Part shown: positions 4,037 through 25,724 of the stretch, piece by piece
Layout of the letters: every line of letters begins with the position of its first letter
Numbering within the stretch: the first letter of the stretch is position 1
Source of the DNA: Spirochaetales bacterium Spiro_05
GTDB taxonomy: Bacteria > Spirochaetota > Spirochaetia > Sphaerochaetales > Sphaerochaetaceae
NCBI GenBank assembly: GCA_001603115.1
Contig: LVBG01000021.1
Span: forward strand, 1-64,000
Length of the DNA: 64,000 nt
Reading direction: 5' to 3'
The notes under the pieces: generated by a model
What the model was told of the DNA's origin: nothing
Databases searched by the model: none
The model's input: the letters and a program-made list of their open reading frames with translations, nothing else
Position numbers and translations under genes: made by a program

Positions 4037-5644
4037 ATGGCGTACACGATTCTTCTTGTTGATGATGAAACGGCGGTACGGGATGGAATTCGTTCCCGTA
4101 CCCCATGGCAAACCTATAATTTTGAGGTCATAGCAGAAGCCGGCAATGGCATAGAAGCCTTGGAACTGGTTGAGGAGCTGCATCCCGATGTCGTCATCAC
4201 TGACATCCGAATGCCCTATCTTGATGGGATGGAGCTGATCCAACAGATTCGCAGCAGTCATCCTGCAACCACCCTTGTCATCCTCAGCGGCTATGACGAG
4301 TTCACCTACGCCCAACAGGCGATGCGCTATGAGGTGAGCGAGTATGTACTGAAGCCGGTGTCCGTCGAGGACCTGAGCAAGCTGCTCGAACGGCTTGGAA
4401 AGCGCCTCGATGAAGAGATCAAGCGTACCCAGGACCAAGATCGTCTCAGACAAGCGTACTTGCAGGCACTCCCTCTGATCAGGGAGAAATTTCTTGTCTC
4501 GTTGCTTACCACTGTCCATCCGCTCTCCGACTCCTTGCTGGTCAGCAAAGCCCAGGAGTATGGCTTCGATCTGGATAAGGACGAGTTCATGGTGGCACTG
4601 ATCGAAACCAACCACTATCAGGATGATCCCTTGCAGGCTCTGGCCATGTTGGAAGTTATCGAGGAAGCGCTCAAGAAGGAGGGAGGAGGCCTTGCCTTCC
4701 AGTTTGAGAATCAGATTGTCATCATCTTCAGTGCGCACAGCCACAACCAGAGCCAGTACGACTCGCTCTTCCGCAAACAGACCTACCGCAAGGCTGAGCA
4801 TCTGAAAACATACCTGGAGAAGTTCTCTTTCGATGCAGTCATGGGGGTGGGAAGCCTTGTCCATAACCCGTCTGCCATCACCCTCTCCTACCATCAGGCC
4901 CTCACCGCTCTCAACTACAGCTCCTGTTACCCGGAGCAATCACTCTTCTTCATCAGCGACCTTGAGAACACCCCCACCGAGGAGAGCGTCGGGAAACTGC
5001 AGGAGATGAAGTCAAACATCCTCATTGCGGTCAAGATGGGCAATGAGGAGCAAGTCACCGATGGAGTGAACCAGCTGCTCGGTGAGCATCTTGCTTCCCT
5101 TGGCGTGCAGGAGATGCAAGCCCTGTTGCTTGAACTCTCCTCATCCTTGCAAGATCTCGCACACTCCTATGGACACTCCCTTTTCGCCATCGGCGAGGAG
5201 GAGGGCCGCAACCTTTTCCTAGAACTGGCAAGTCTGACCACTCTGGGCAAAGCAAGGCGGTGGTACACCCGCCTTTGCCTGAACCTAAGGGCAATGATTG
5301 CAGGACAACGGGAAAACAGTCATATCCAATTCATTGGACAAGCCAAGACCTTGATCGCCAAGCACTTCACCGAGAGTGGATTCGGACTTGAGCAGATTTG
5401 TGAGATGATCGGGGTGAGTCCCTCCTATTTCAGCTCCACCTTCAAGCGGGAAGTGGGGTTGAGTTTCGTACAGTACCTTACCGGAATGCGAATGGACAGG
5501 GCCAAGGAGCTTTTGGTGAAGACCGAAGGGAAAACCTATGAGATTGCCCAGACAGTGGGCTTTGCTGAGCCAAACTACTTCAGCTTCTGCTTCAAGCGAC
5601 ATGTGGGGCTCTCCCCCTCCCAATATCGACAGGCAAACCGATGA
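4037..5644 (+). CDS. YesN-type response regulator (REC + AraC DNA-binding), 535 aa
   Basis: Transcription regulator of a two-component pair. Residues 1-125 are a receiver with acidic pocket Asp9/Asp10, phosphoacceptor Asp56 (VVITDIRMP) and Lys106 (YVLKPV). A middle region of about 300 residues has no clear domain but resembles the linker of YesN proteins. Residues about 430-535 hold two helix-turn-helix motifs of the AraC family (LEQICEMIGVSPSYFSSTFK and IAQTVGFAEPNYFSFCFK). The stop overlaps the next ATG (ATGA at 5641), so it is translated together with the kinase. Likely target: the convergent mglBAC operon or another sugar uptake operon; that is inference from position. The start is probably leaderless. 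Confidence 0.93.
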   Translation: MAYTILLVDDETAVRDGIRSRTPWQTYNFEVIAEAGNGIEALELVEELHPDVVITDIRMPYLDGMELIQQIRSSHPATTLVILSGYDEFTYAQQAMRYEVSEYVLKPVSVEDLSKLLERLGKRLDEEIKRTQDQDRLRQAYLQALPLIREKFLVSLLTTVHPLSDSLLVSKAQEYGFDLDKDEFMVALIETNHYQDDPLQALAMLEVIEEALKKEGGGLAFQFENQIVIIFSAHSHNQSQYDSLFRKQTYRKAEHLKTYLEKFSFDAVMGVGSLVHNPSAITLSYHQALTALNYSSCYPEQSLFFISDLENTPTEESVGKLQEMKSNILIAVKMGNEEQVTDGVNQLLGEHLASLGVQEMQALLLELSSSLQDLAHSYGHSLFAIGEEEGRNLFLELASLTTLGKARRWYTRLCLNLRAMIAGQRENSHIQFIGQAKTLIAKHFTESGFGLEQICEMIGVSPSYFSSTFKREVGLSFVQYLTGMRMDRAKELLVKTEGKTYEIAQTVGFAEPNYFSFCFKRHVGLSPSQYRQANR

Positions 5645-7407
5645 AGAGCATCCGAGGCCCCCACTCCATCAAGACCATCCTCTCCATCGCCATTGCAGTG
5701 GTCTCCATCTCCTTTACCTTGCTTGTGTCTGCAATCCTCTATACCCAGTTCAGTTCGACCATCAGGGAGAACGCCACCGTCTCAACCCGTGAGATAGTCC
5801 GTCAGGTGAATGCCAACCTCAACTTCTACACCAACGACATCCTCACCATCGCAGGCTATGCACGGGATCTTGCCAAACAGACCAACGACCTGCCCCGCTT
5901 CGAGATTGAGCAACGTCTGCGCTCAATCGTTGACAGCAGACAGGACATCGTCTGTCTGGTGCTCTTCAATCTGGAGGGAGAGGCGGTTCTCTCCACAAGC
6001 GATGCAAAACTTCGCAGTGCCAAGGAAATCAAGGATCAGACCTGGTTCACCAGAGCCCTCGGAGGTGAGGGAAACTTCTATTTCACCGGACCGCATGTCC
6101 AGCAGCTCTTCACCTCAAGCTACCCCTGGGTCATAACCTACAGCCAACAGATCAGCTATCTGGATGAGGGGGGAGAGACCAAGTACGGACTCTTGGCAAT
6201 CGATATGAACTTCTGGGCGGTGAGTGAGCTTTGCCAGAATGCAAGACTAGGGTCCACCGGCTATGTCTACTTCATCGACAACAATGGAAAAATCGTCTAC
6301 CACCCCTACCAACAGCTGATCAACTCCGACCTCTTCAATGAGGATCTGGATGCGGTCCAAGAACACATCTTCGGAACCTTCACCAACACCTTTGAAGGAA
6401 GGGAACGGCTTGTGATCGTTGATACGGTCAACAATGCCCGCTGGCGAATCGTTGGGGTTGCCTACATGGATGAGCTGATGTCAGGTTTGGACCAGTACAC
6501 CTCGGTCATGTTCCTGGTGCTTGCCTTCTGTATCATCATCACCATCCTGCTCTCCCGTACGGTCTCCGCGTACATCAGCCGCCCCATCAGAGAGCTGGAA
6601 AGGCTGATGAACAGCGTGGAGCGCGGCGATTTCTCTTCTCCTCCCACCGTAGGAGGAAACCAAGAGGTTGCAGCCCTCTCGCAAACCTTCGCCCTGATGG
6701 TCGGTCGTATCCGCCAGCTCATGGATGACATCGTCAAGAGCCAGGAGATGAAACGCAAGTTTGAGCTCGATGCTCTGCAGGCAAAAATCAATCCACACTT
6801 CTTGTACAACACCCTCGATTCGGTGGTTTGGATGGCTGAGCAGAACAACACCGAGGGGGTCATCACCATGATTACCTCCCTCGCAAAGCTCTTCAGGATC
6901 TCGATCAGCAAGGGAAGGGACATCATCACCCTCAGCGAGGAGCTGGAGCATGTACGCAACTATCTGATCATCCAGCAGATCCGCTACCGAGACAAGTTCG
7001 AGTTCTCCATCTCGATGGAAGCGGGTATGGAGAATCTGCCGACCATCAAGCTCATCGTCCAACCCATCGTGGAGAATGCCATCTATCATGGCATCAAGTA
7101 CCTGCAGGAGATGGGCCATATCGACATCAAGGTGTTCAAGCGCAAACCAGGAGCTGTAGTAATCGAGGTTCGTGACAACGGGGTGGGCATGGATGAGCAG
7201 AAACTCTCAAACATCCTTAGCTACGAAGGACCGCACCATAAGGGAGGAGCGGGTATCGGGGTGAGGAATGTCCACCAGAGAATCCAACTCTACTACGGCT
7301 CTGATTACGGCCTTGAAATCTCCAGCGAATTGGATGAAGGAACCCTGGTCAGGCTCGTAATACCCGAACAGGTGCCGATCCATCCCATCAAGGTGGCCTC
7401 ATCATGA
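5641..7407 (+). CDS. YesM-type sensor histidine kinase, 588 aa
   Basis: Membrane sensor kinase partner of the regulator at 4037. Seen: a first membrane helix near residues 12-36; an extracytoplasmic sensor region of about 245 residues with Cache-like features (YVYFIDNNGKIVYHP); a second helix near 289-312; a HAMP linker; the His_kinase block with NPHFLYN, in which His386 is the phosphorylated residue; and an ATPase domain with VENAIYHG and DNGVGMDEQ. This order is standard for YesM kinases that respond to extracellular sugars. It overlaps both neighbours by ATGA (5641 and 7404), so three proteins come from one message. The ligand is unknown; the adjacent binding protein suggests a sugar. Confidence 0.94.
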   Translation: MKSIRGPHSIKTILSIAIAVVSISFTLLVSAILYTQFSSTIRENATVSTREIVRQVNANLNFYTNDILTIAGYARDLAKQTNDLPRFEIEQRLRSIVDSRQDIVCLVLFNLEGEAVLSTSDAKLRSAKEIKDQTWFTRALGGEGNFYFTGPHVQQLFTSSYPWVITYSQQISYLDEGGETKYGLLAIDMNFWAVSELCQNARLGSTGYVYFIDNNGKIVYHPYQQLINSDLFNEDLDAVQEHIFGTFTNTFEGRERLVIVDTVNNARWRIVGVAYMDELMSGLDQYTSVMFLVLAFCIIITILLSRTVSAYISRPIRELERLMNSVERGDFSSPPTVGGNQEVAALSQTFALMVGRIRQLMDDIVKSQEMKRKFELDALQAKINPHFLYNTLDSVVWMAEQNNTEGVITMITSLAKLFRISISKGRDIITLSEELEHVRNYLIIQQIRYRDKFEFSISMEAGMENLPTIKLIVQPIVENAIYHGIKYLQEMGHIDIKVFKRKPGAVVIEVRDNGVGMDEQKLSNILSYEGPHHKGGAGIGVRNVHQRIQLYYGSDYGLEISSELDEGTLVRLVIPEQVPIHPIKVASS

Positions 7408-8351
7408 AACGAGTACTCCTCATCTTGCTCATCACTACCCTTCTTCTTGGCTGTTCCAACAAGCAACAGGATCAAAACAAGACCTATCGCATCGCCGTCA
7501 TCACCATGATGCAGGGAGGCGAATTTTGGGGAGCTCTGAAGAACGGGGCAAGAAGCGCTCGCAGCGCTACCGGATCGGTATTGGAATTTCTCGCCCCAGT
7601 CAATGAGTCAGACTATGAAGGCCAGATCAGTGCAGTCCAACGCGCCATAGACCAGCAGTTTGATGCAATCGTTCTCTCTCCAAGCCACTACACCCGTCTT
7701 GAGGACGTGGTGGCAAAGGCACGAAGCAAGGGTATCAAAGTGGTGTTTGCCGATACATCGCTGATGAACGTACACCCAGATTTATCCATCACCGCCGACT
7801 ACCAGGCGATAGGAAAAGCAATGGCAGAGCACGCATTCTCCCATTTTGCTGAAGGGGAGCCGATCAAGGCCCTGGTCTTGGGATCGATGCCGAACACCAG
7901 CAGCATGACGGCAATTGTGGAAGCTCTGGCAGCCAATTTTGCGAAAAAGGAAGGAGCTGCAATTGTCAATGCAACCTACTCCTTTACCGATGAGGCGATC
8001 GCAAAAGATATCACCACCAGCGCCCTTGCCAGCGATCCTTCGATCAATCTCATCTTCGCTCTGGAAGAGTATACCGCCCATGGCGTGGCGAATGCATTGA
8101 AAGAGAATCAGAAGGTTCACTTCATTGCCTTTGGAACCACCCAATATGAGATCCAGCTCCTGGAGCAGGGTGTCATCGATGCCTTGGTAGTGGTCAACTC
8201 CTTCAACCTCGGTTACCGTGCAGTGATGGCCGCCATCGACCTGCTGAACGGGATAAAACCTATAGAGAAGCTGGTGGATTTCGACCTCGTGACCAAGGAG
8301 TCGATGTTCAGCGAAGAACATCAGCGCCTGCTCTTCCAAACGCTGCAATAG
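7404..8351 (+). CDS. RbsB-like sugar-binding lipoprotein, co-sensor candidate, 315 aa
   Basis: Periplasmic type 1 sugar-binding protein anchored as a lipoprotein. A short signal with lipobox LLLGC puts the lipid on Cys17. The mature protein has the ribose/galactose-binding fold: IAVITMMQGGEFWGALKNG at the first strand, DAIVLSP, GIKVVFADT, then a hinge and a second lobe with LIFALEEYTAHG. No permease or ATPase follows; the gene is translationally coupled to the sensor kinase (ATGA at 7404). That makes it more likely a ligand-presenting partner of the kinase than a transport protein, as in known three-component sugar sensors. It faces mglC across a shared terminator. Ligand unknown. Confidence 0.9.
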   Translation: MKRVLLILLITTLLLGCSNKQQDQNKTYRIAVITMMQGGEFWGALKNGARSARSATGSVLEFLAPVNESDYEGQISAVQRAIDQQFDAIVLSPSHYTRLEDVVAKARSKGIKVVFADTSLMNVHPDLSITADYQAIGKAMAEHAFSHFAEGEPIKALVLGSMPNTSSMTAIVEALAANFAKKEGAAIVNATYSFTDEAIAKDITTSALASDPSINLIFALEEYTAHGVANALKENQKVHFIAFGTTQYEIQLLEQGVIDALVVVNSFNLGYRAVMAAIDLLNGIKPIEKLVDFDLVTKESMFSEEHQRLLFQTLQ

Positions 8352-8354
8352 AAA

Positions 8355-8376
8355 GAGGCAGGGTTGCCCCTGCCTC
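8355..8376. terminator. Convergent terminator between the sensor operon and mglC
   Basis: GAGGCAGGG (8355-8363) pairs with CCCTGCCTC (8368-8376) around a 4-base loop. It lies between stops at 8351 (+) and 8398 (-). A short T-rich stretch follows on the minus side only. Confidence 0.6.
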
Positions 8377-8397
8377 AAGTAGCGTAGGAAGGGACGA

Positions 8398-9402
8398 CTA
8401 CTTCTTCTGGACGTATTTGCGGATATCGAAGGAGACCGCAGAGACGATGATGACACCCTTGATGATGTTCTGCCAGTACGGGTTGACCCCGATGAACGTC
8501 AGACCATAGTTGATGAAGCTGAAGATGATGACACCCGCGATTACCCCGCTGACCGTACCAACACCACCGGTGGTAGATACACCACCGACAACACAGCTGG
8601 CGATGGCATCAAGCTCATACCCGTTGCCGTAGTTGTTGGTTGCACCTCCAGTACGGGCTGCTTCCAGCACGCCTGAGAGCGAGATGAGAAAACCACATAC
8701 CCCAAAGAGCCCCACCAAGGTCTTGGTGATGTTGATGCCTGAAACAGCAGCTGCCTCAGGGTTTCCCCCCACCGCGTATACGTTCTTGCCGAACACGGTC
8801 TTGTTCAGGACGAACCAGACGATGATCGAAACAATACCCGCAAAGACAACGATGACCGGGACAAAGCCCACTGAACCCGAGCCGAGGAAGGTGAAATCAG
8901 CTCTGAGGCCGCCGATGGGCTGGCTGTTGTTCGGGGGCATGTTGAAGTAGATGGAGTTGATCCCATAGATGATCAACATGGAACTGAGGGTTGCGATGAA
9001 GGCCGGTACCTTGAATTTGGCTACGATGAGGCCGTTCATCATCCCAAACAACGTACCTACTGCAACGGCCAGCAGAATCGGCAGAATCACAGGCACCTGC
9101 CCCAAATCGGGGTAGAAGCGCCTGACATAGTCAGCAGTCTGCAGCATGGAAGCTGAGATGACCGCTGCCATACCAACCAAACGGCCACCACCAAGGTCTA
9201 CACCACCGGTAAGGATGACAAACATCATACCCAGGGCCATGATGATCTTCGTGGAGCTCATCATCAGGATATCGCGCAGTACCTGCAAACGCAGGATCCT
9301 TGGATTGATGATGGCGATGACGACGACAAGCAGGAGCAAGACCAAGAAAATTGCCTTGTCCATGACGAACTGTTTCACTTTTTTTGCATTCAGCATTTCC
9401 AT
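8398..9402 (-). CDS. mglC: Sugar ABC transporter permease MglC-like, 334 aa
   Basis: Inner-membrane channel subunit of a ribose/galactose-class ABC importer. Seen: about eight to ten hydrophobic segments starting at [19 protein letters not shown]; the [21 protein letters not shown] segment; the EAAAVSGI cytoplasmic loop that contacts the ATPase; and the conserved [22 protein letters not shown] block near the C-terminus, all typical of this permease family. I place the start at ATG 9402, preceded by GGAGGG with an 8-base gap; a longer frame reaches into mglA but lacks any signal. It begins 13 bases after the mglA stop, so it is co-transcribed and probably coupled. Confidence 0.94.
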
Positions 9403-9415
9403 ATGGTTCACCCTC

Positions 9416-10924
9416 CTACCCGACGTACTTTGTCGCCAGTTCCATGATTGCTTCCTGGTTTGTCTCTTTGCTGGCCACCACACCGGCGACCCTGCCCTCA
9501 CTCATGACCACTATTCTGTCGGTCATCCCCAGCAGCTCGGGCATTTCACTGCTGATCATGATCACACCCTTGCCTTGGGCGGCAAGCTCGCGCATGATCA
9601 CATAGATCTCAAACTTTGCACCAACGTCGATACCACGGGTCGGTTCGTCCAGAATGAGAATATCGGGAACGGTGAGCAGCCACCGGGCGAAGAGTACCTT
9701 CTGCTGGTTTCCTCCGCTCAGGCTCTTGATAAGTGTCCTGGCCGATGGGGTTTTGATATCCAGTTCCTTGATGCTCTTCTTCGTGTCAGCTGCCATCTTG
9801 GCAGCATTGAGCAGACCGTTCTTGTTCCGATACGCATTGATGTTTGCGATGACAAGGTTCTCCTGTACCGAGAGGACAGGGAAAATACCGGTTGCACGCC
9901 GTTCCTCGGTCAGCAATGCCATGCCCAGACGTTTGGCATCGTAGGCATTGTTGCAGACCACCTCCTTGCCATTTACAAAGAGCTTGCCTTGGCTGTGGAG
10001 CCTCAGGCCGAACACCGCCTCCATGACTTCGGTTCGCTGGGCACCGACAAGACCCCCGATACCCAGGATTTCTCCCTTGTGCAATGTAAGCGATACATCC
10101 TTGAAGCTTCGGGGATTCGGAGAGGTATACTGCTCGATTCGCAAAAGCTCTCCACCAATGGTACTCTCCCCAGAAGGGAAGCGATGGGTAAGGTCTCGTC
10201 CAACCATGCGCTTGATGATGGTAGCTGTCGTAAGCTCGTTTGCAGGCCAGGTGCCCACATACTTGCCATCGCGCATGATGGTGACTTCGTCGCTGATCTT
10301 CAGGATCTCTTCCATCTTATGGGAAATATAGATGATGGCCACACCTCGTGCCTTCAGAGAGCGAATGATGGTGAACAGATGCTCCACCTCATTCTCCGTC
10401 AGCGAGGAACTTGGCTCATCCATAATGATGATTTTTGATTCATAGGATACGGCCTTCGCAATCTCGACACTCTGTGCCTTTGACACCGAGAGGGTGCGCA
10501 AAAGATCGGTAGGCTGAATAGTGTTGAGATTGAGCTCCTTCAACAAGGAGGCTGTCATCTCATACATGGTCTTGTGGTCAACAACCGGACTCTTCGATCC
10601 ACCGATACGTGGATATCTGCCCAACCAGATGTTCTCCATGACCGAGCGATAGGGGATCAAATGGAGCTCTTGGTGGATCATCGAGATCCCAAGCGCTAGA
10701 GCTTCCTTTACGCTGTTGATGTTCACCGGCTGTCCATTGAAGGAAATCTGCCCTTCATCCATGGAATACAGGCCGAAGAGGCACTTCATCAGGGTGGACT
10801 TTCCTGCCCCATTTTCTCCCATGAGAGCGTGTACCGTTCCCGGCCTCACCTTCAGTGTTACGTCGTCCAATGCCTTGACGCCGGGAAATGACTTGGAGAC
10901 ATGGTCCATTTCTAATACATACAT
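9416..10924 (-). CDS. mglA: Sugar ABC transporter ATPase MglA-like, 502 aa
   Basis: Cytoplasmic ATPase with two tandem nucleotide-binding domains, the layout used by ribose/galactose-class importers. First domain: Walker A GENGAGKST near residue 37, signature LSVSKAQSVEIAKA, Walker B IIIMDEPSSSL. Second domain: a degenerate Walker A (GGLVGAQRTE), signature LSGGNQQKV, Walker B ILILDEPTRGID. The weak second P-loop is normal here, since only one site hydrolyses well. It lies between mglB and mglC; an attenuator-like hairpin separates it from mglB, which would lower its level relative to the binding protein. Confidence 0.96.
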   Translation of the reverse strand: MYVLEMDHVSKSFPGVKALDDVTLKVRPGTVHALMGENGAGKSTLMKCLFGLYSMDEGQISFNGQPVNINSVKEALALGISMIHQELHLIPYRSVMENIWLGRYPRIGGSKSPVVDHKTMYEMTASLLKELNLNTIQPTDLLRTLSVSKAQSVEIAKAVSYESKIIIMDEPSSSLTENEVEHLFTIIRSLKARGVAIIYISHKMEEILKISDEVTIMRDGKYVGTWPANELTTATIIKRMVGRDLTHRFPSGESTIGGELLRIEQYTSPNPRSFKDVSLTLHKGEILGIGGLVGAQRTEVMEAVFGLRLHSQGKLFVNGKEVVCNNAYDAKRLGMALLTEERRATGIFPVLSVQENLVIANINAYRNKNGLLNAAKMAADTKKSIKELDIKTPSARTLIKSLSGGNQQKVLFARWLLTVPDILILDEPTRGIDVGAKFEIYVIMRELAAQGKGVIMISSEMPELLGMTDRIVVMSEGRVAGVVASKETNQEAIMELATKYVG

Positions 10925-10967
10925 GACTTCCCCCGTCTCCCCGGAGATCCCGGGGTGTAGTTCCTTG

Positions 10968-11003
10968 AAAAAACCCTCCGGATTAACGAGCTAACCCGGA
11001 GGG
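10968..11003 (-). terminator. Attenuating terminator between mglB and mglA
   Basis: CCCTCCGG (10974-10981) pairs perfectly with CCGGAGGG (10996-11003). On the minus strand the stem is followed by six T (10973-10968). It is intrinsic-terminator-like but sits inside the operon, so partial read-through is expected. Confidence 0.78.
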
Positions 11004-11024
11004 GGAATCACACTGACTCAGTTC

Positions 11025-12038
11025 TTATTTGAACTGCTTGTAGTTCTCTTTGGTAACCTTCTGGTAAGGAACCCAAACGTACTTGCCATCAGTGATCTTG
11101 TAGCCGATGGAGTCGCTGGTGGGTTTGATGCCACGAGCCAAGTCGTAGGAGAGCATGAAGGTTGCACGGCCCTGGTTGACAGCGTCATTGAGGACGGTGC
11201 CGAGCAGGGTGCCTTCTTCGAGAGCCTGCAATGCGGGAGCGGTTGCATCAACACCGACGACGGGCATGAACTTTCCGTCCTTGAAGTAACCGGCAGCCTT
11301 GAGGGCTTCGATTGCACCGAGGGCCATATCGTCGTTGTTTGCGAACACTGCCTCAATCTTGTCGCCCTGGCTGGCAATGAAAGCAGCCATCTTTTCCTGG
11401 CCCTTTACACGGTCCCACATGCCGGTGTCTTCAGCAAGCTTCTGCACCTTGATTCCGTTGTCCTGCAGATTCTTGATGGAGTACTCGGTGCGGAGCTCTG
11501 CGTCCTGGTGACCGGGCTCGCCCTTGAGCATGACATACTGCAATACGCCGTCGCCATTCTTGTCCATGGACTTGTTGGCCTTCCAGTAGTCGGCAATGAT
11601 CTGGCCACTCATGGTACCGGACTCTTCAGCACGGGCACCAACATAGTAGATCTTGTCCCACTTTGCCATGTCTTCAGCAAGCGGCTCGCGATTGAAGAAC
11701 ACTACGGGAATGTTGGCCTTCTTGGCCTTGTCGATGATGACACCGGCTGCGGTGCGGTCGACAGGATTGATCTGCATGGCTTTCATGCCCTTGGTGATGA
11801 ACAGGTCGACCTTCTCATTCTGGGTGGCCTGAATGTTCATGGAGTCGACAACCTCCACCTTTGCATCAGTCTCTGCTGCTGCAGCGACGATTGCATTGCG
11901 GACACCAGTCATGAACGTGTCATCAAACTTGTAGATGGCGCATCCGATTTCAATGGCCTTGCTGTCAGACTGACCCTGTGCAAACATGGGTGTTGCCAAG
12001 GCAAGTGCCAAGCACACAACTGCGGTAATCTTTTTCAT
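11025..12038 (-). CDS. mglB: Galactose/glucose-type periplasmic binding protein MglB-like, 337 aa
   Basis: Substrate-binding protein for the mglAC importer. An N-terminal signal (MKKITAVVCLALALATPMFA) is followed by the mature type 1 fold. Features resembling galactose-binding proteins are: GCAIYKFDDTFMTGVRNAI at the first strand; IQATQNEKVDLFITKGMKAMQINPVD; VVFFNREP; the DKNGDGVLQ calcium-loop-like segment; VFANNDDMALGAIEAL; and PVVGVDATAPALQAL. Galactose or glucose is the likely ligand, from these family-typical contacts. ATG 12038 has a GGAGG site 5 bases upstream. It is the first gene of the operon; the hairpin after it should leave mglB more abundant than mglAC, as usual for binding proteins. 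Confidence 0.95.
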   Translation of the reverse strand: MKKITAVVCLALALATPMFAQGQSDSKAIEIGCAIYKFDDTFMTGVRNAIVAAAAETDAKVEVVDSMNIQATQNEKVDLFITKGMKAMQINPVDRTAAGVIIDKAKKANIPVVFFNREPLAEDMAKWDKIYYVGARAEESGTMSGQIIADYWKANKSMDKNGDGVLQYVMLKGEPGHQDAELRTEYSIKNLQDNGIKVQKLAEDTGMWDRVKGQEKMAAFIASQGDKIEAVFANNDDMALGAIEALKAAGYFKDGKFMPVVGVDATAPALQALEEGTLLGTVLNDAVNQGRATFMLSYDLARGIKPTSDSIGYKITDGKYVWVPYQKVTKENYKQFK

Positions 12039-21215: not shown

Positions 21216-22553
21216 TCAGTATCCGAGCTGGACCATGGTATCGGCAACCTTCCTGAAGCCGGCGATGTTCGCCCCCTTCACGTAGTTGATGTACCCGTCA
21301 TCCTCCTTCCCTTCACGAACACAAGCCTGATGAATCTGGGTCATGATGGAAAAGAGCTTCTCATCCACCTCCTCAGCAGTCCAGGAAAGGTGCATGGCAT
21401 TCTGGCTCATTTCCAAGCCGCTGACAGCTACTCCGCCTGCATTTGCTGCCTTGCCCGGAGCAAAGGGAATGCGTTGTCCGATCAGGAAGGTGACCGCATC
21501 AGCTTGGCATCCCATGTTTGAAGTCTCGACCACGTACTTCACTCCGTTGGCCACCAATATCTTCGCATCCTCAAGATTCAGCTCGTTTTGGATGGCGCAG
21601 GGGAAAGCAAGGTCAACCGGAACCTCCCAAGGCTTCTTCTTCGGGACAAACGTGGCCCCGAACTTCTTTGCATACGGCTCCACCACATCGTTGTTGCTGG
21701 TTCTCAGGAAGTTCATGAAAGCCCACTTCTCCGGTGTACCCACTCCCTCCTCGTCATAGATGTAGCCATCGGGTCCGCTGATGGTAACCACTTTGGCCCC
21801 AAGCTGGGTTGCCTTGACTGCAGCACCCCAGGCAACATTGCCGAATCCGCTGATGGAGACGCGTTTGCCCTCGAAGCTGTCATTGTGTGCCTCAAGCATG
21901 GCCTTGGCAAAGTACATCGTGCCATAGCCGGTAGCCTCCGGACGGACCAGCGAGCCACCATAGCCCAAGCCCTTGCCGGTCAGAACACCGGTATTCTCCT
22001 CCCGGATGCGCTTGTACTGCCCATACAGGTACCCGATCTCCCTGGCCCCCACTCCGATGTCCCCTGCAGGAACGTCAGTATCCGGACCGATGTATTTCTG
22101 AAGCTCAGTCATGAAGGAGCGGCAGAAACGAAGGATTTCCGCATCACTCTTGCCACGGGGATTGAAGTCACTGCCACCCTTGCCGCCACCCATGGGAAGG
22201 GTCGTCAGGCTGTTTTTCAGGGTCTGTTCGAAACCGAGGAACTTCAGTGAGCCGAGGGTCACACTGGAGTGGAACCGGAGCCCTCCCTTGTAGGGGCCGA
22301 TGGCATTGTTGAACTGCACCCGATATCCGCGATTCACCTGTAGGTTACCCTCGTCATCCTCCCACTCCACCCGGAAAGAGTACACACGATCGGGCTCGGT
22401 CATCCGTTCCAGAATCCGGTTTTTCTCATAGACGGGGTTCTCATTCACCACATCGATGACACTCTCCAGGACCTCGCGCACAGCCTGGATGAACTCAGGC
22501 TGGGCGGGATTCTTCCGCTCCAGATCTTCCATTAATGTTTCAAGGGTATACAT
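21216..22553 (-). CDS. gdhA: NADP-type glutamate dehydrogenase, 445 aa
   Basis: Cytoplasmic enzyme joining ammonia and 2-oxoglutarate to make glutamate. Seen: the substrate domain with YKGGLRFHSSVTLGSLKFLGFEQTLKNSLTTLPMGGGKGG (catalytic Lys in the GGGKGG region); PAGDIGVGAREIGYL; and the nucleotide-binding domain with SGFGNVAWGAAVKA, then NMGCQADAV and NAGGVAVSGLEMSQN. Length of about 445 and the sequence style match the hexameric NADP-dependent assimilatory class. I choose ATG 22553 (MYTLETLMEDL) after AAGGAG; the frame also opens 12 codons earlier. It has its own TTGACA promoter and a strong terminator, so it is a single-gene unit. Confidence 0.96.
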   Translation of the reverse strand: MYTLETLMEDLERKNPAQPEFIQAVREVLESVIDVVNENPVYEKNRILERMTEPDRVYSFRVEWEDDEGNLQVNRGYRVQFNNAIGPYKGGLRFHSSVTLGSLKFLGFEQTLKNSLTTLPMGGGKGGSDFNPRGKSDAEILRFCRSFMTELQKYIGPDTDVPAGDIGVGAREIGYLYGQYKRIREENTGVLTGKGLGYGGSLVRPEATGYGTMYFAKAMLEAHNDSFEGKRVSISGFGNVAWGAAVKATQLGAKVVTISGPDGYIYDEEGVGTPEKWAFMNFLRTSNNDVVEPYAKKFGATFVPKKKPWEVPVDLAFPCAIQNELNLEDAKILVANGVKYVVETSNMGCQADAVTFLIGQRIPFAPGKAANAGGVAVSGLEMSQNAMHLSWTAEEVDEKLFSIMTQIHQACVREGKEDDGYINYVKGANIAGFRKVADTMVQLGY

Positions 22554-22606
22554 ACCTAGATTTTTCTCCTTCAGAACGAGTGCAAGCATCTACTGCTTGT
22601 TCAAAA

Positions 22607-22635
22607 AGCCTAAACCCGAGCATAGGTTCTGTCAA
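22607..22635 (-). promoter_or_regulatory. Promoter of gdhA
   Basis: Minus strand: perfect -35 TTGACA (22635-22630), 17 bases, TAGGCT (22612-22607). Predicted leader of about 45 bases with an AAGGAG site. The flanking region 22640-22740 is very AT-rich. Confidence 0.6.
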
Positions 22636-22762
22636 TGTTTAAATTGAGTTAATCATGAGTATTATTTTTTATATTACTCGATTGTTCAATAAATCGTATA
22701 TTTTTTGAATTTTTTATCAAATTTATGCAATTCTTGAATTTCTATTCAAAACTGTATGCCCA

Positions 22763-22771
22763 TGCTACACT
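22763..22771 (+). promoter_or_regulatory. Extended -10 promoter abutting the REC/ATP-grasp gene
   Basis: TGC followed by TACACT (22766-22771), 7 bases before ATG 22779. No good -35 at standard spacing; the extended TGn motif may compensate. No ribosome site. Confidence 0.5.
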
Positions 22772-22778
22772 ACTCGGT

Positions 22779-25724
22779 ATGTACACACTAGACCCTACCT
22801 GGTTGCCCTTCAGCAACCTGATGCTGAAACATATCTACAACGTCCTGCTCATCTGCAACGAATACGACCGGTTTCTTCTGGAAGAGGACGGACGGGTTGA
22901 AGAGGAGCTGTACATCGAATACACCCAGCTGGGGCTGAACAACCCTCCAAAAATCACCCACACCAACAGTGGTGAGGAAGCGCTCAAGCTCATCGCAAGC
23001 CGGAAGTATGAACTGGTCATCACCATGCTCGATCTCGGGCCGGAATCAGTGGAACAACTTGCCGACTCCATCAAGAAGCTGGATCCGGAAATGCCGGTCA
23101 TCGCCCTCTCCCCCTCCTCAAGCCACCGCAGGAACAAGCTGATCAAGGGTTCGGACTGTCAGGCGATCGACTACTTCTTCTACTGGCAGGGCGACCCCAC
23201 CATCTTCTTGGCCATGATCAAGCTGGTCGAGGACAGGATGAACCTCGATCACGACACAAAGGAAGCTGACGTACAGGTCATCATCCTGGTTGAAGACTCA
23301 ATCCGTTTCTACTCCTCCTACCTACCCATGATGTACACCTGCCTCATCCAGCAGAACCGCTCAGCCATTTTGGAAGCGCTGAACAACTGGGGCAAAACCC
23401 TGCGCATGCGGGGAAGACCCAAAATTGTCCTTGCAAGGACCTATGAGGAGGCTTGGCAGCTGTACAGCACCTACCGGCACAACATCCTGGGCATCATCAC
23501 CGACATGTCCTACCTCAAGGAAGGGCAGCAGGACAGGCTGGCCGGGCTTACCCTCACCAAGGAGGTACTCGCCCTCGACCCCGAAGTCCCCATTCTGGTG
23601 CAAAGCAGCGACAACAACGCCCGTGACGAGGTGGAGGATGGTGGAGCCTTCTTCATCTGGAAGCACAGCTCGTCGCTGCTCTTCGACCTCAACAAGTTCA
23701 TGACCAGCCATTACGGCTTCGGCCCCTTCATCTTCCGTGACCCGAAAACGATGGAAGAGATTGCACGAGCTGAAACAATGCGTGACCTGCAGCGGCTTCT
23801 GCCCTTCATCCCAGCTGAAAGCTTCGACTTCCACTGCAGGCGCAATGAGTTCTCCCGCTGGCTGAGGGCACAGAGTCTCTATACCCTCGCCGCCAAGATC
23901 AAGAACCTGCAGATACCTCCCGGAGGCAATGCCTCGCTTGTCCAGCAGCAGCTCATCGACATCATCCGCACCTACCGAAGCGAACGCACCAAAGGTGTCA
24001 TCGCACAGTTCAGTCGCAACAACTATGACGAGACACTCTTTTTCAGCCGTATCGGGGGAGGGTCCCTGGGTGGCAAGGGCAGAGGGCTTGCTTTCATCGA
24101 CATGGTGCTCAGAGCAGCAAAGCTTCCTGCCAAGTACCCCCAGGTCTATCTCTCCATTCCCCGTACCGTTGTGCTGACCACAGAGATGTTCACCCAATTC
24201 ATTGAGGAGAACAACCTCACCGACATCACCACCGCAGACCTCCCGGATGAGACCTTGCTCAAGATTTTCCTCTCCAAGCCGTTGAAAGAGGAGCTGGTGC
24301 TCAACCTCGCTGAGATAATCCAGGTGATCCACCAACCCATCTGCGTGCGCTCCTCGAGTTTGCTTGAAGACTCCCACTACCAGCCGTTCGCAGGGGTGTA
24401 TGAGACCTGCATGCTGCCCAACAAGGGAAGTGACGAAGTACGACTCGCAGAACTGTGTGATGCAATCAGGGCAGTATGGGCCTCAACCTATTTCCGCAGT
24501 GCCAAGGAGTACCTCAAGGCAACCGAGCACATGCTCGAGGATGAGAAAATGGCTGTCATCATCCAGCAGGTCATCGGCAGCGAACACGGCTCATACTGGT
24601 ATCCGAACATCAGCGGGGTTGCCCGCTCACTCAACTACTATCCCTTGGGTGGGGAAAAACCCGAGGACGGAGTTGGAATGCTCAGCTTCGGGTTTGGAAA
24701 GTCTGTCGTCGACAATGGGTCGGCTCTGCGCTTCAGTCCCTCCCATCCCAAGCGACCGGCCCAGTATCTGGGAGGAAACCAAACCAGCAGCCAAAGGACC
24801 TTCTACGGCCTGAATCTGAAAAACGGGTACCACCCGCTGGCTGAAGGTGGCTTGGAAAACCTTGAACTGCTGGATCTCAGTGAAGCTGAACAGCATCCTG
24901 AATCACTCAAGTTCATCGCAAGCACATATGAGATGGCAACCGGGACCCTCAGTGAATCGATCCGTGCAGAAGGGCAGAAGGTCATCACGTTCAACGGGGT
25001 TCTCAAGTATGACGCCTTCCCGCTCGCCCAGATTGTCAAGGACATCCTCATCCTCGGCACCGAAGCCATGGGAAAGCCGGTGGAAATAGAGTTTGCCGTC
25101 AACCTCAACCGAAAAGCTCCAAAAATCCAGGAGTTCAGTCTCCTGCAGATCAGGCCCATTGCGGCAGGCAATGAGGAGAGCGATGTGGCCATCAGCGATG
25201 AGGAACGGACACAAGCCGCAATTCACTCCGTAGTGGTCATGGGAAACGGGAAGATTGAGGATATTCATGATCTCATCTATCTCAAGCTCGATCGCTTCAA
25301 TGCATCAGCTATGAAGGATATGGCCAAGGAGCTGGACAAGCTCAATGCCCAGATGGTTCTTGCCGAGCGCGACTATGCCCTCCTGGTTGCCGGCAGGCTC
25401 GGTTCTTGCGACCCTTGGCTCGGAATCCCGGTAACGTGGTCACAGATTTCCCGCTCCAAGGTAATCATCGAAACCGGCCTGAAGGGCTTCCAGGTTGAGC
25501 CCAGCCAAGGAACCCACTTCTTCCAGAACATGACCAGCCTCGGCTGCATGTACCTTACGATCAATCCGATGTATCGATCAGGACGCCTGGATAGGGAAAA
25601 GCTATCAGCACTGGCTGTCTATGATGAGACTGAGCACTTCATCCATGCCCACAGTGAAAAGCCGCTCACCATCAAGGTGAACGGCTTCAAAGGGGAAGGG
25701 GTGGTGCTGATCAATCAGGAGTGA
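22779..25724 (+). CDS. Double receiver-like domain + PEP-synthase-type ATP-grasp protein, 981 aa
   Basis: Large cytoplasmic protein of uncertain function. Residues 16-155 look like a receiver whose phosphoacceptor position is Met83 instead of Asp. Residues 165-315 are a second receiver-like domain that keeps Glu172/Asp173, Asp242 and Lys295. A helical linker (320-420) leads to a pyruvate-phosphate-dikinase/PEP-synthase N-terminal ATP-binding region: GGGSLGGKG (426-434), RSSSLLED (524-531), PFAGVYET (537-543), ISGVARS, and LLQIRPI (788-794). The swivelling phospho-histidine domain and PEP-binding barrel of true PEP synthase are absent. The last 120 residues carry a distinct conserved-looking block (GRLGSCDPWLGIPV and EPSQGTHFFQN). 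I infer a signal-controlled ATP-dependent phosphotransferase or nucleotide-binding regulator. ATG 22779 is chosen over 22725. Confidence 0.8.
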   Translation: MYTLDPTWLPFSNLMLKHIYNVLLICNEYDRFLLEEDGRVEEELYIEYTQLGLNNPPKITHTNSGEEALKLIASRKYELVITMLDLGPESVEQLADSIKKLDPEMPVIALSPSSSHRRNKLIKGSDCQAIDYFFYWQGDPTIFLAMIKLVEDRMNLDHDTKEADVQVIILVEDSIRFYSSYLPMMYTCLIQQNRSAILEALNNWGKTLRMRGRPKIVLARTYEEAWQLYSTYRHNILGIITDMSYLKEGQQDRLAGLTLTKEVLALDPEVPILVQSSDNNARDEVEDGGAFFIWKHSSSLLFDLNKFMTSHYGFGPFIFRDPKTMEEIARAETMRDLQRLLPFIPAESFDFHCRRNEFSRWLRAQSLYTLAAKIKNLQIPPGGNASLVQQQLIDIIRTYRSERTKGVIAQFSRNNYDETLFFSRIGGGSLGGKGRGLAFIDMVLRAAKLPAKYPQVYLSIPRTVVLTTEMFTQFIEENNLTDITTADLPDETLLKIFLSKPLKEELVLNLAEIIQVIHQPICVRSSSLLEDSHYQPFAGVYETCMLPNKGSDEVRLAELCDAIRAVWASTYFRSAKEYLKATEHMLEDEKMAVIIQQVIGSEHGSYWYPNISGVARSLNYYPLGGEKPEDGVGMLSFGFGKSVVDNGSALRFSPSHPKRPAQYLGGNQTSSQRTFYGLNLKNGYHPLAEGGLENLELLDLSEAEQHPESLKFIASTYEMATGTLSESIRAEGQKVITFNGVLKYDAFPLAQIVKDILILGTEAMGKPVEIEFAVNLNRKAPKIQEFSLLQIRPIAAGNEESDVAISDEERTQAAIHSVVVMGNGKIEDIHDLIYLKLDRFNASAMKDMAKELDKLNAQMVLAERDYALLVAGRLGSCDPWLGIPVTWSQISRSKVIIETGLKGFQVEPSQGTHFFQNMTSLGCMYLTINPMYRSGRLDREKLSALAVYDETEHFIHAHSEKPLTIKVNGFKGEGVVLINQE

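Follow-up and report, generated by a model that had tools for sequence, protein, structure and literature searches.

The window analysed here comprises 64,000 nucleotides of Spirochaetales bacterium Spiro_05 (contig LVBG01000021.1, positions 1 to 64,000 of the forward strand). It contains a gene for a 981-residue protein, which is built around an ATP-grasp module of the type found in phosphoenolpyruvate (PEP) synthase and PPDK, and which is encoded divergently from gdhA, the gene for glutamate dehydrogenase (GDH). Gene context suggests that the family to which this protein belongs probably controls GDH, a key enzyme of nitrogen metabolism, in at least two bacterial phyla. The open reading frame at 22779–25724 on the + strand (981 codons, then a stop) was confirmed. 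A preliminary description of this DNA, made from the letters alone, proved correct in frame, domain order and residue numbers; its interpretation is partly supported. An in-frame ATG further upstream, at 22725, would give an alternative protein of 999 residues. The Met at 22779 is common to 10 other Spirochaete rows of the alignment, and since the starts of these rows were those nearest to this Met, the predicted start at 22779 is likely, though short of proof. The features of the locus are:

22779–25724, + strand: coding sequence, 981 residues, in the order REC1, REC2, linker, PPDK_N ATP-grasp, C-terminal domain.
22830–23258, + strand: REC1, receiver-like, residues ~18–160, with Met83 at the phosphoacceptor position.
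23256–23732, + strand: REC2, receiver-like, residues ~160–318, with the pocket E172/D173, D242, S276 and K295.
23502–23504, + strand: codon of Asp242, the predicted phosphoacceptor of REC2 (Asp in 72/72).
23838–23978, + strand: linker region, residues 354–400, weakly similar to DUF5752 (Pfam, E 0.21).
24063–25211, + strand: PPDK_N ATP-grasp module, residues 429–811 (Pfam), with K433, R524, E771 and Q790 invariant.
25212–25721, + strand: C-terminal domain, residues ~812–981, with the core G872-R-x-G ... E898 ... S909-x-G-T-H913-F.
25515–25517, + strand: codon of the invariant His913 (His in 131/132 representatives, one gap).
21216–22589, − strand: gdhA, glutamate dehydrogenase (ELFV_dehydrog, Pfam), the divergent neighbour and predicted partner or target.
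22590–22778, no strand: 189-bp region between gdhA and the gene of the 981-residue protein, with 77% mean column identity when aligned with 7 near relatives.

A scan of genome contigs yielded 48 loci with relatives, of which those of Sphaerochaeta and Spirochaetales are about 69–98% identical to the protein; the nearest are found in a Spirochaetia metagenome-assembled genome (96%) and, as a partial sequence, in another such genome (98%). Since Bacteroidales-type relatives are still about 40–44% identical over almost the full length, the frame encodes a conserved protein and does not represent a chance open reading frame. The member from Parabacteroides distasonis is labelled "PEP/pyruvate-binding domain-containing protein" by NCBI. 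In the linker, the resemblance to DUF5752 reaches E 5.5e-5 in one relative (L184). More distant relatives have only the ATP-grasp module and the C-terminal domain in common with the protein, and this pair is preceded by a KaiC-like module, by a GAF-like module, or by no further domain at all (581 residues). The identities of the GAF-like module and of the KaiC-like module, in which no Walker A motif is seen, are our own reading; no Pfam match below E 0.1 was obtained for the KaiC-like module in the examples scanned, nor does BLAST detect meaningful similarity between this N-terminus and the receiver part.

Conservation was assessed in 132 representatives, selected with a profile of the C-terminal domain: 70 with two receivers (2REC type), 38 KaiC-like, 13 GAF-like, 2 GAF+2REC and 9 with an unassigned N-terminus, several of which are cut by contig or locus ends. 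Due to this selection, strongly diverged copies such as L069:5350–8379 are not among them. The latter forms a tandem pair of paralogs (5350–8379 and 8276–11377, both on the − strand), and its degenerate ATP-grasp/C-terminal part, with GSHFSSN in place of GSHFF/GTHFF, remains under the threshold of the C-terminal profile. Three of the six GAF-like proteins scanned end in an NTP_transf_2 domain (L062:1836–5054, − strand; L063:4706–7900, − strand; L176:7643–10834, + strand), which is suggestive of nucleotidylylation; the domain was not found in the GAF-like proteins of L077 (partly masked), L193 and L194.

Family matches occur in 61 of 296 genomes sampled from the home phylum (best match E<1e-15; the other matches, weak and for the most part confined to receivers, were not counted). 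Of 247 genomes sampled from a second phylum, that of G322, 42 have a match to the C-terminal domain, as do 55 of 60 sampled from the genus of G563. Viral spread was considered and rejected, as no relative is among the 35 pattern matches in viral contigs. Carriage on plasmids was likewise discarded: the three full-length plasmid matches are Bacteroidales records that appear to be chromosomal. No connection of PG1017 of Porphyromonas gingivalis with the family could be established.

The family is genomically linked to GDH. In the window, both neighbours of the gene lie on the opposite strand, and the statement of the preliminary description that it is not part of an operon holds in so far as co-transcription with either neighbour is improbable. 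The conclusion drawn there, that the partner is encoded elsewhere, is probably wrong in view of the recurrent proximity to GDH. A scan for promoters and terminators gave no clear signal. In a search with the GDH of the window, GDH was located beside those Sphaerochaeta-type loci whose upstream sequence extends far enough, and beside members of other types as well. The link was quantified with a GDH profile on 137 clusters (90% identity), of which 107, in 98 loci, are flanked by 1.5 kb or more of sequence on each side. Of these 107 clusters, 65 have GDH within 3 kb and 59 within 600 bp; counted by locus, 61 of the 98 have it. In the stretches retrieved for 19 control loci from related genomes, the same profile found GDH at none; these loci encode canonical, swivel-bearing PPDK/PEP-synthase-like proteins, and 17 of them pass the same flank rule.

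GDH accompanies members with different N-termini and in different orientations. Within 1 kb it is found at 24 of 54 genes of the 2REC type (11 divergent, 8 with GDH upstream and 3 downstream on the same strand, 2 convergent) and at 22 of 33 of the KaiC-like type (2 divergent, 3 upstream and 13 downstream on the same strand, 4 convergent). At the GAF-like type the count is 10 of 13, with nine genes located behind a different, shorter GDH class of about 430 residues and one divergent; at the minimal 581-residue type it is two of three, both behind the ~430-residue class. Neither of the two GAF+2REC genes has GDH within this distance, and a single unassigned row of 1010 residues has it downstream on the same strand (1/1). 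At L169 the orientation is divergent. When mapped on a tree of 106 rows built with FastTree, for which the method issued a long-branch warning, adjacency requires 20 or more changes and arrangement requires 29, arguing that the adjacency is not inherited as one frozen block.

Individual loci illustrate the variety of arrangements. In the genus of G563, GDH lies within 4 kb at 14 of 20 loci, in 6 of these within 600 bp. At L181, L182 and L225 a gdh converges with the family gene, which thus lies downstream of it at a distance of 91–304 bp, and a second gdh is located 2.4–3.3 kb away on the other side of the family gene. Parabacteroides (L131) and Phocaeicola (L216) combine a divergent gdh with a second one at a distance of 3.5–4.1 kb. 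L184 and L185 each harbor two family paralogs, each positioned directly behind its own gdh; a third GDH, belonging to the other class, is situated downstream of one of the paralogs. L176:4597–10834 contains a trio composed of a GDH of the ~430-residue class, a minimal 581-residue protein consisting of PPDK_N and C-terminal domain, and a 1064-residue GAF-like protein with the nucleotidyltransferase; pairs resembling part of this trio are present at L177 and L179.

On the level of whole genomes, a GDH match (PF00208, counted at E≤0.001, some matches being weak) is present in 60 of the 61 home-phylum genomes with the family and in 143 of the 235 without it (Fisher p 2e-10, kinship ignored). The sole family-bearing genome of the home phylum without such a match is G186, which is 77% complete.

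The central part of the protein is a complete PPDK_N ATP-grasp module, as judged by sequence. Residues 429–811 match Pfam PF01326 with an E-value of 4.8e-45 (154.7 bits, cut-off 27), and K433, R524, E530, D531, E771 and Q790 are unchanged in 132 of 132 representatives; K433, R524, E771 and Q790 presumably are the ATP-site residues of PPDK_N. As none of the six ever varies, the ATP site looks active. The earlier description of a PEP synthase/PPDK-type ATP-binding module that is followed neither by a phospho-His swivel nor by a PEP barrel is borne out at the sequence level: in the 981-residue protein, Pfam gives no match at E≤1 to the swivel (PF00391) or to the PEP/pyruvate TIM barrel, profile-profile comparison does not recognise the swivel either, and the protein ends 170 residues past PPDK_N. 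A role as an enzyme or sensor whose ATP binding is controlled by a signal is plausible. If ATP binding served for sensing only, the module would read the ATP/AMP level, and GDH would be inhibited or activated non-covalently, by binding. Such a role would suit the lack of a recognisable swivel or acceptor barrel, the signalling N-termini and the link to GDH, but the retention of all six residues in every representative seems to exceed what binding needs, and a mere sensor is considered improbable. In the genome of Spiro_05 itself, a 2.3-Mb draft assembly that is 68.6% complete, there is a single PEP-utilizers match (a 584-residue frame of enzyme I size), and no PPDK or PEP synthase was found.

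The C-terminal residues 870–930, initially described as a block without assignment, form the core of a conserved domain that extends over residues ~812–981 and has no convincing relative; its matches in Pfam, in NCBIfam and among PDB sequences are all weak and scattered. G872, R873, G875, G882, E898, S909, G911, H913 and F914 are shared by 131 of the 132 representatives; the remaining one shows a gap. The constancy of R873, E898, S909, H913 and F914 within this set makes the domain look catalytic or ligand-binding. A phospho-His domain hidden in this region had been named as an observation that would contradict the preliminary description. An invariant His is indeed present, but comparison with the swivel profile lends no support at the sequence level: hhalign against a profile built from PPDK, PEP-synthase-like proteins and enzyme I gave a probability of 0.6% over 6 columns, and an alignment anchored on the shared PPDK_N module does not pair His913 with the swivel His. 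The residue preceding His913 is Thr or Ser, and Ser precedes the swivel His in the swivel seeds inspected. The invariant His lies 123 residues after the QxR motif (Q790 to H913), compared with 119–122 in eight PPDK-like proteins and 39 in the single PEP-synthase-like protein that matches the pattern. Both the preceding residue and the spacing provide a weak likeness to the swivel, and the spacing is kept as a coincidence.

At the N-terminus, Pfam Response_reg (PF00072) matches residues 58–132 with an E-value of 6.9e-7 and 29.9 bits, which is slightly under the cut-off of 30.2. The presence of two receiver-like domains within residues 1–320, as initially proposed, is supported by profile searches for REC1 and marginally for REC2. 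REC1 is matched by Response_reg at E≤1 in 25 of 27 aligned members (query segment, E 5.4e-5), and its profile finds receivers in the PDB down to E 1.6e-6. The receiver likeness of REC2 appears weaker and more distant, with matches in 18 of 27 members (best 1.6e-5, query segment 0.064) and only marginal PDB matches (best E 0.063), which are receivers as well. Among the 72 REC-type representatives, the phosphoacceptor position of REC1, described as lost to Met83, holds Met (54) or Thr (17), with one gap, and never Asp. The pocket attributed to REC2 is retained, with D242 and S276 in 72 of 72, E172 in 71, K295 in 70 and D173 in 68. Based on this conservation REC1 is a pseudo-receiver, and REC2 looks phosphorylatable.

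The invariance of both His913 and, in REC-type members, Asp242 could indicate an ATP-grasp histidine autokinase. His913 would be phosphorylated from ATP, the phosphate would be passed to the protein's own Asp242, or in the reverse direction, and the resulting conformations would regulate GDH. Mechanistically characterised PPDK_N relatives phosphorylate a histidine, and the 22 largest clusters of neighbours within 4 kb, to which the search was confined, include none of histidine kinases (one annotated histidine kinase lies about 5.5 kb off at L131). However, sequence comparison detects no homology between the C-terminal domain and the swivel, and His913 is just as invariant in members without receivers, so that a relay with Asp242 is not the general purpose of this residue. 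An autokinase of this kind is regarded as quite improbable.

Taken together, the 981-residue protein is proposed to be a dedicated, signal-gated, ATP-dependent regulator of GDH, a reading to which we assign a probability of about one half and in which genomic context points to GDH as the target. The N-terminal module would read a signal, by means of a phosphorylatable REC2 coupled to the pseudo-receiver REC1 or, in relatives, of a KaiC-like or GAF-like module. The signal (in the 2REC type, phosphorylation of Asp242) would change or gate the ATP-grasp module, which would bind ATP and probably split it. Together with the C-terminal domain, the ATP-grasp might then act on GDH, either by passing on the phosphate or by altering its activity otherwise, and ammonia assimilation or glutamate deamination would track the state of the cell. 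Where the mechanism of PPDK_N enzymes is known, it involves a phosphohistidine, and phosphoryl transfer from ATP, with His913 as carrier or catalyst, is for this reason ranked first among the possible acts. The architecture, the invariant residues and the genomic link with GDH are observed; GDH as the target, a covalent act and a part in it for His913 are all inferred. More far-reaching, and doubtful, is the proposal of an undescribed ATP-grasp phosphotransferase system that controls GDH in at least two phyla, in which a PPDK_N core and a new phospho-transfer domain carrying His913 modify GDH under exchangeable sensors, with a nucleotidyltransferase in part of one branch. Such a system would be the GDH counterpart of the adenylylation of glutamine synthetase and could also include a His-to-Asp phosphorelay that dispenses with a classical histidine kinase.

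Several observations weigh against the reading as a dedicated GDH regulator. The neighbourhood is an association and carries neither direction nor chemistry, and homology between the C-terminal domain and the phospho-His swivel is not detectable at the sequence level, by hhalign or by anchored alignment. Nine of the 19 control loci without GDH come from one genus, and the family sample is non-random: 48 loci were retrieved by their similarity to the query, and most of the others belong to genomes sampled evenly across two phyla. GDH is absent within 4 kb at 38 of 106 clusters, within 1 kb in all 17 rows of one Bacteroidales 2xREC clade, and throughout 10–15 kb stretches at 6 of the 20 loci from the genus of G563 (L221, L222, L223, L224, L229 and L232). 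The 38 clusters would be expected if, in line with the preliminary description, the protein were a receiver-gated ATP enzyme whose unrelated acceptor is encoded elsewhere and whose proximity to GDH is coincidental. Considering the absence of GDH from the control loci and the recurrence of the link across orientations and N-terminal types, a coincidence is very unlikely.

Alternatively, the protein could be a metabolic enzyme of the glutamate/2-oxoglutarate node, with the ATP-grasp phosphorylating a small molecule made or used by GDH or glutamate synthase and the C-terminal domain forming the substrate site. Known PPDK_N enzymes use small molecules such as pyruvate or rifampin, the invariant Arg/Glu/Ser/His set of the C-terminal domain would be compatible with such a site, and, besides the adjacency to GDH, glutamate synthase or GltD-like genes occur at some loci, which counts for the regulator reading as well. 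Clusters of neighbours within 4 kb, over 116 loci, comprise the large subunit of glutamate synthase (6 loci), GltD-like proteins (15) and an NAD-binding/FeS reductase (10), the names deriving from Pfam on one example each and the 15 GltD-like cases including merely moderately similar proteins. A class of 8 clusters with glutamate synthase (GOGAT) only was not relied on, since in seven of them the assignment depends on a GltD-like protein matched with moderate scores. Against a metabolic enzyme speak the pairing of each paralog with its own gdh at L184/L185 and the combination of one core with several N-termini, sometimes with a nucleotidyltransferase, and this alternative appears rather unlikely. 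Because of these exchangeable N-terminal modules and the nucleotidyltransferase in three of six GAF-like proteins, a regulator of GDH fits better than a housekeeping enzyme.

Comparison with known systems reveals familiar parts in an unfamiliar combination. PEP synthase and PPDK (PpsA, PpdK) share the PPDK_N ATP-grasp with its conserved residues and, in the eight PPDK-like proteins although not in the PEP-synthase-like one, a similar distance from QxR to His. They differ from the 981-residue protein by their swivel and PEP barrel, neither of which is detectable in the latter, and by its signalling N-terminus, undescribed C-terminal domain and frequent GDH neighbour. Rifampin phosphotransferase RPH is an ATP-grasp enzyme whose phosphorylated substrate is not pyruvate (PMC4844700). 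It has the ATP-grasp core in common with the protein, in which the His swivel and the rifampin-binding domain of RPH are not detected. Response regulators with enzymatic outputs share the Asp/Lys/Ser pocket of REC2 and its N-terminal position; unlike in these, a pseudo-receiver and a receiver are arranged in tandem, the Pfam scores of the query are under the cut-off, and the output consists of PPDK_N and a new domain. GlnE and GlnD are modifiers of nitrogen enzymes. Provided that the GDH reading holds, the family would share with them the signal-driven control of an enzyme of ammonia assimilation, and some GAF-like members carry a C-terminal nucleotidyltransferase; in contrast, the target would be GDH instead of glutamine synthetase/PII and the core is an ATP-grasp. 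No homology to GlnE/GlnD is claimed.

In the literature searched, no paper on the family was recognised, nor any account of its domain combinations, of its C-terminal domain or of its link to GDH. While ATP-grasp and receivers are known parts, modification of GDH, if shown, would constitute a new regulatory system. In Bacteroides, the two GDHs are stated to be fundamental to nitrogen assimilation (PMC4539542). The family provides a concrete candidate for a switch of GDH, with a conserved domain that has no name in the libraries searched. To our knowledge, the way in which GDH activity is switched in Bacteroides is not settled. By the title of a 1996 paper (J Bacteriol 178:7212), cited in PMC4539542, Baggio and Morrison reportedly found that GDH activity in B. 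thetaiotaomicron is influenced in trans by one or more genes located downstream of gdhA. The convergent layout of L181, L182 and L225 would fit this title, and the family may account for the gene(s) meant there.

Stand-alone KaiC-like proteins occur beside KaiC-type ATP-grasp enzymes at five loci (L061:2729–4021, + strand; L157:8951–10222; L144:7791–9098; L152:9154–10515; L143:4220–5617), the last four being assigned by profile. In the one scanned, L061:2729–4021, the KaiC-like module is fused to a helix-turn-helix domain (HTH_3), with a weak match to Cupin_2. Owing to the HTH_3 domain of this protein, one KaiC-like sensor may feed both a transcription factor and the ATP-grasp protein.

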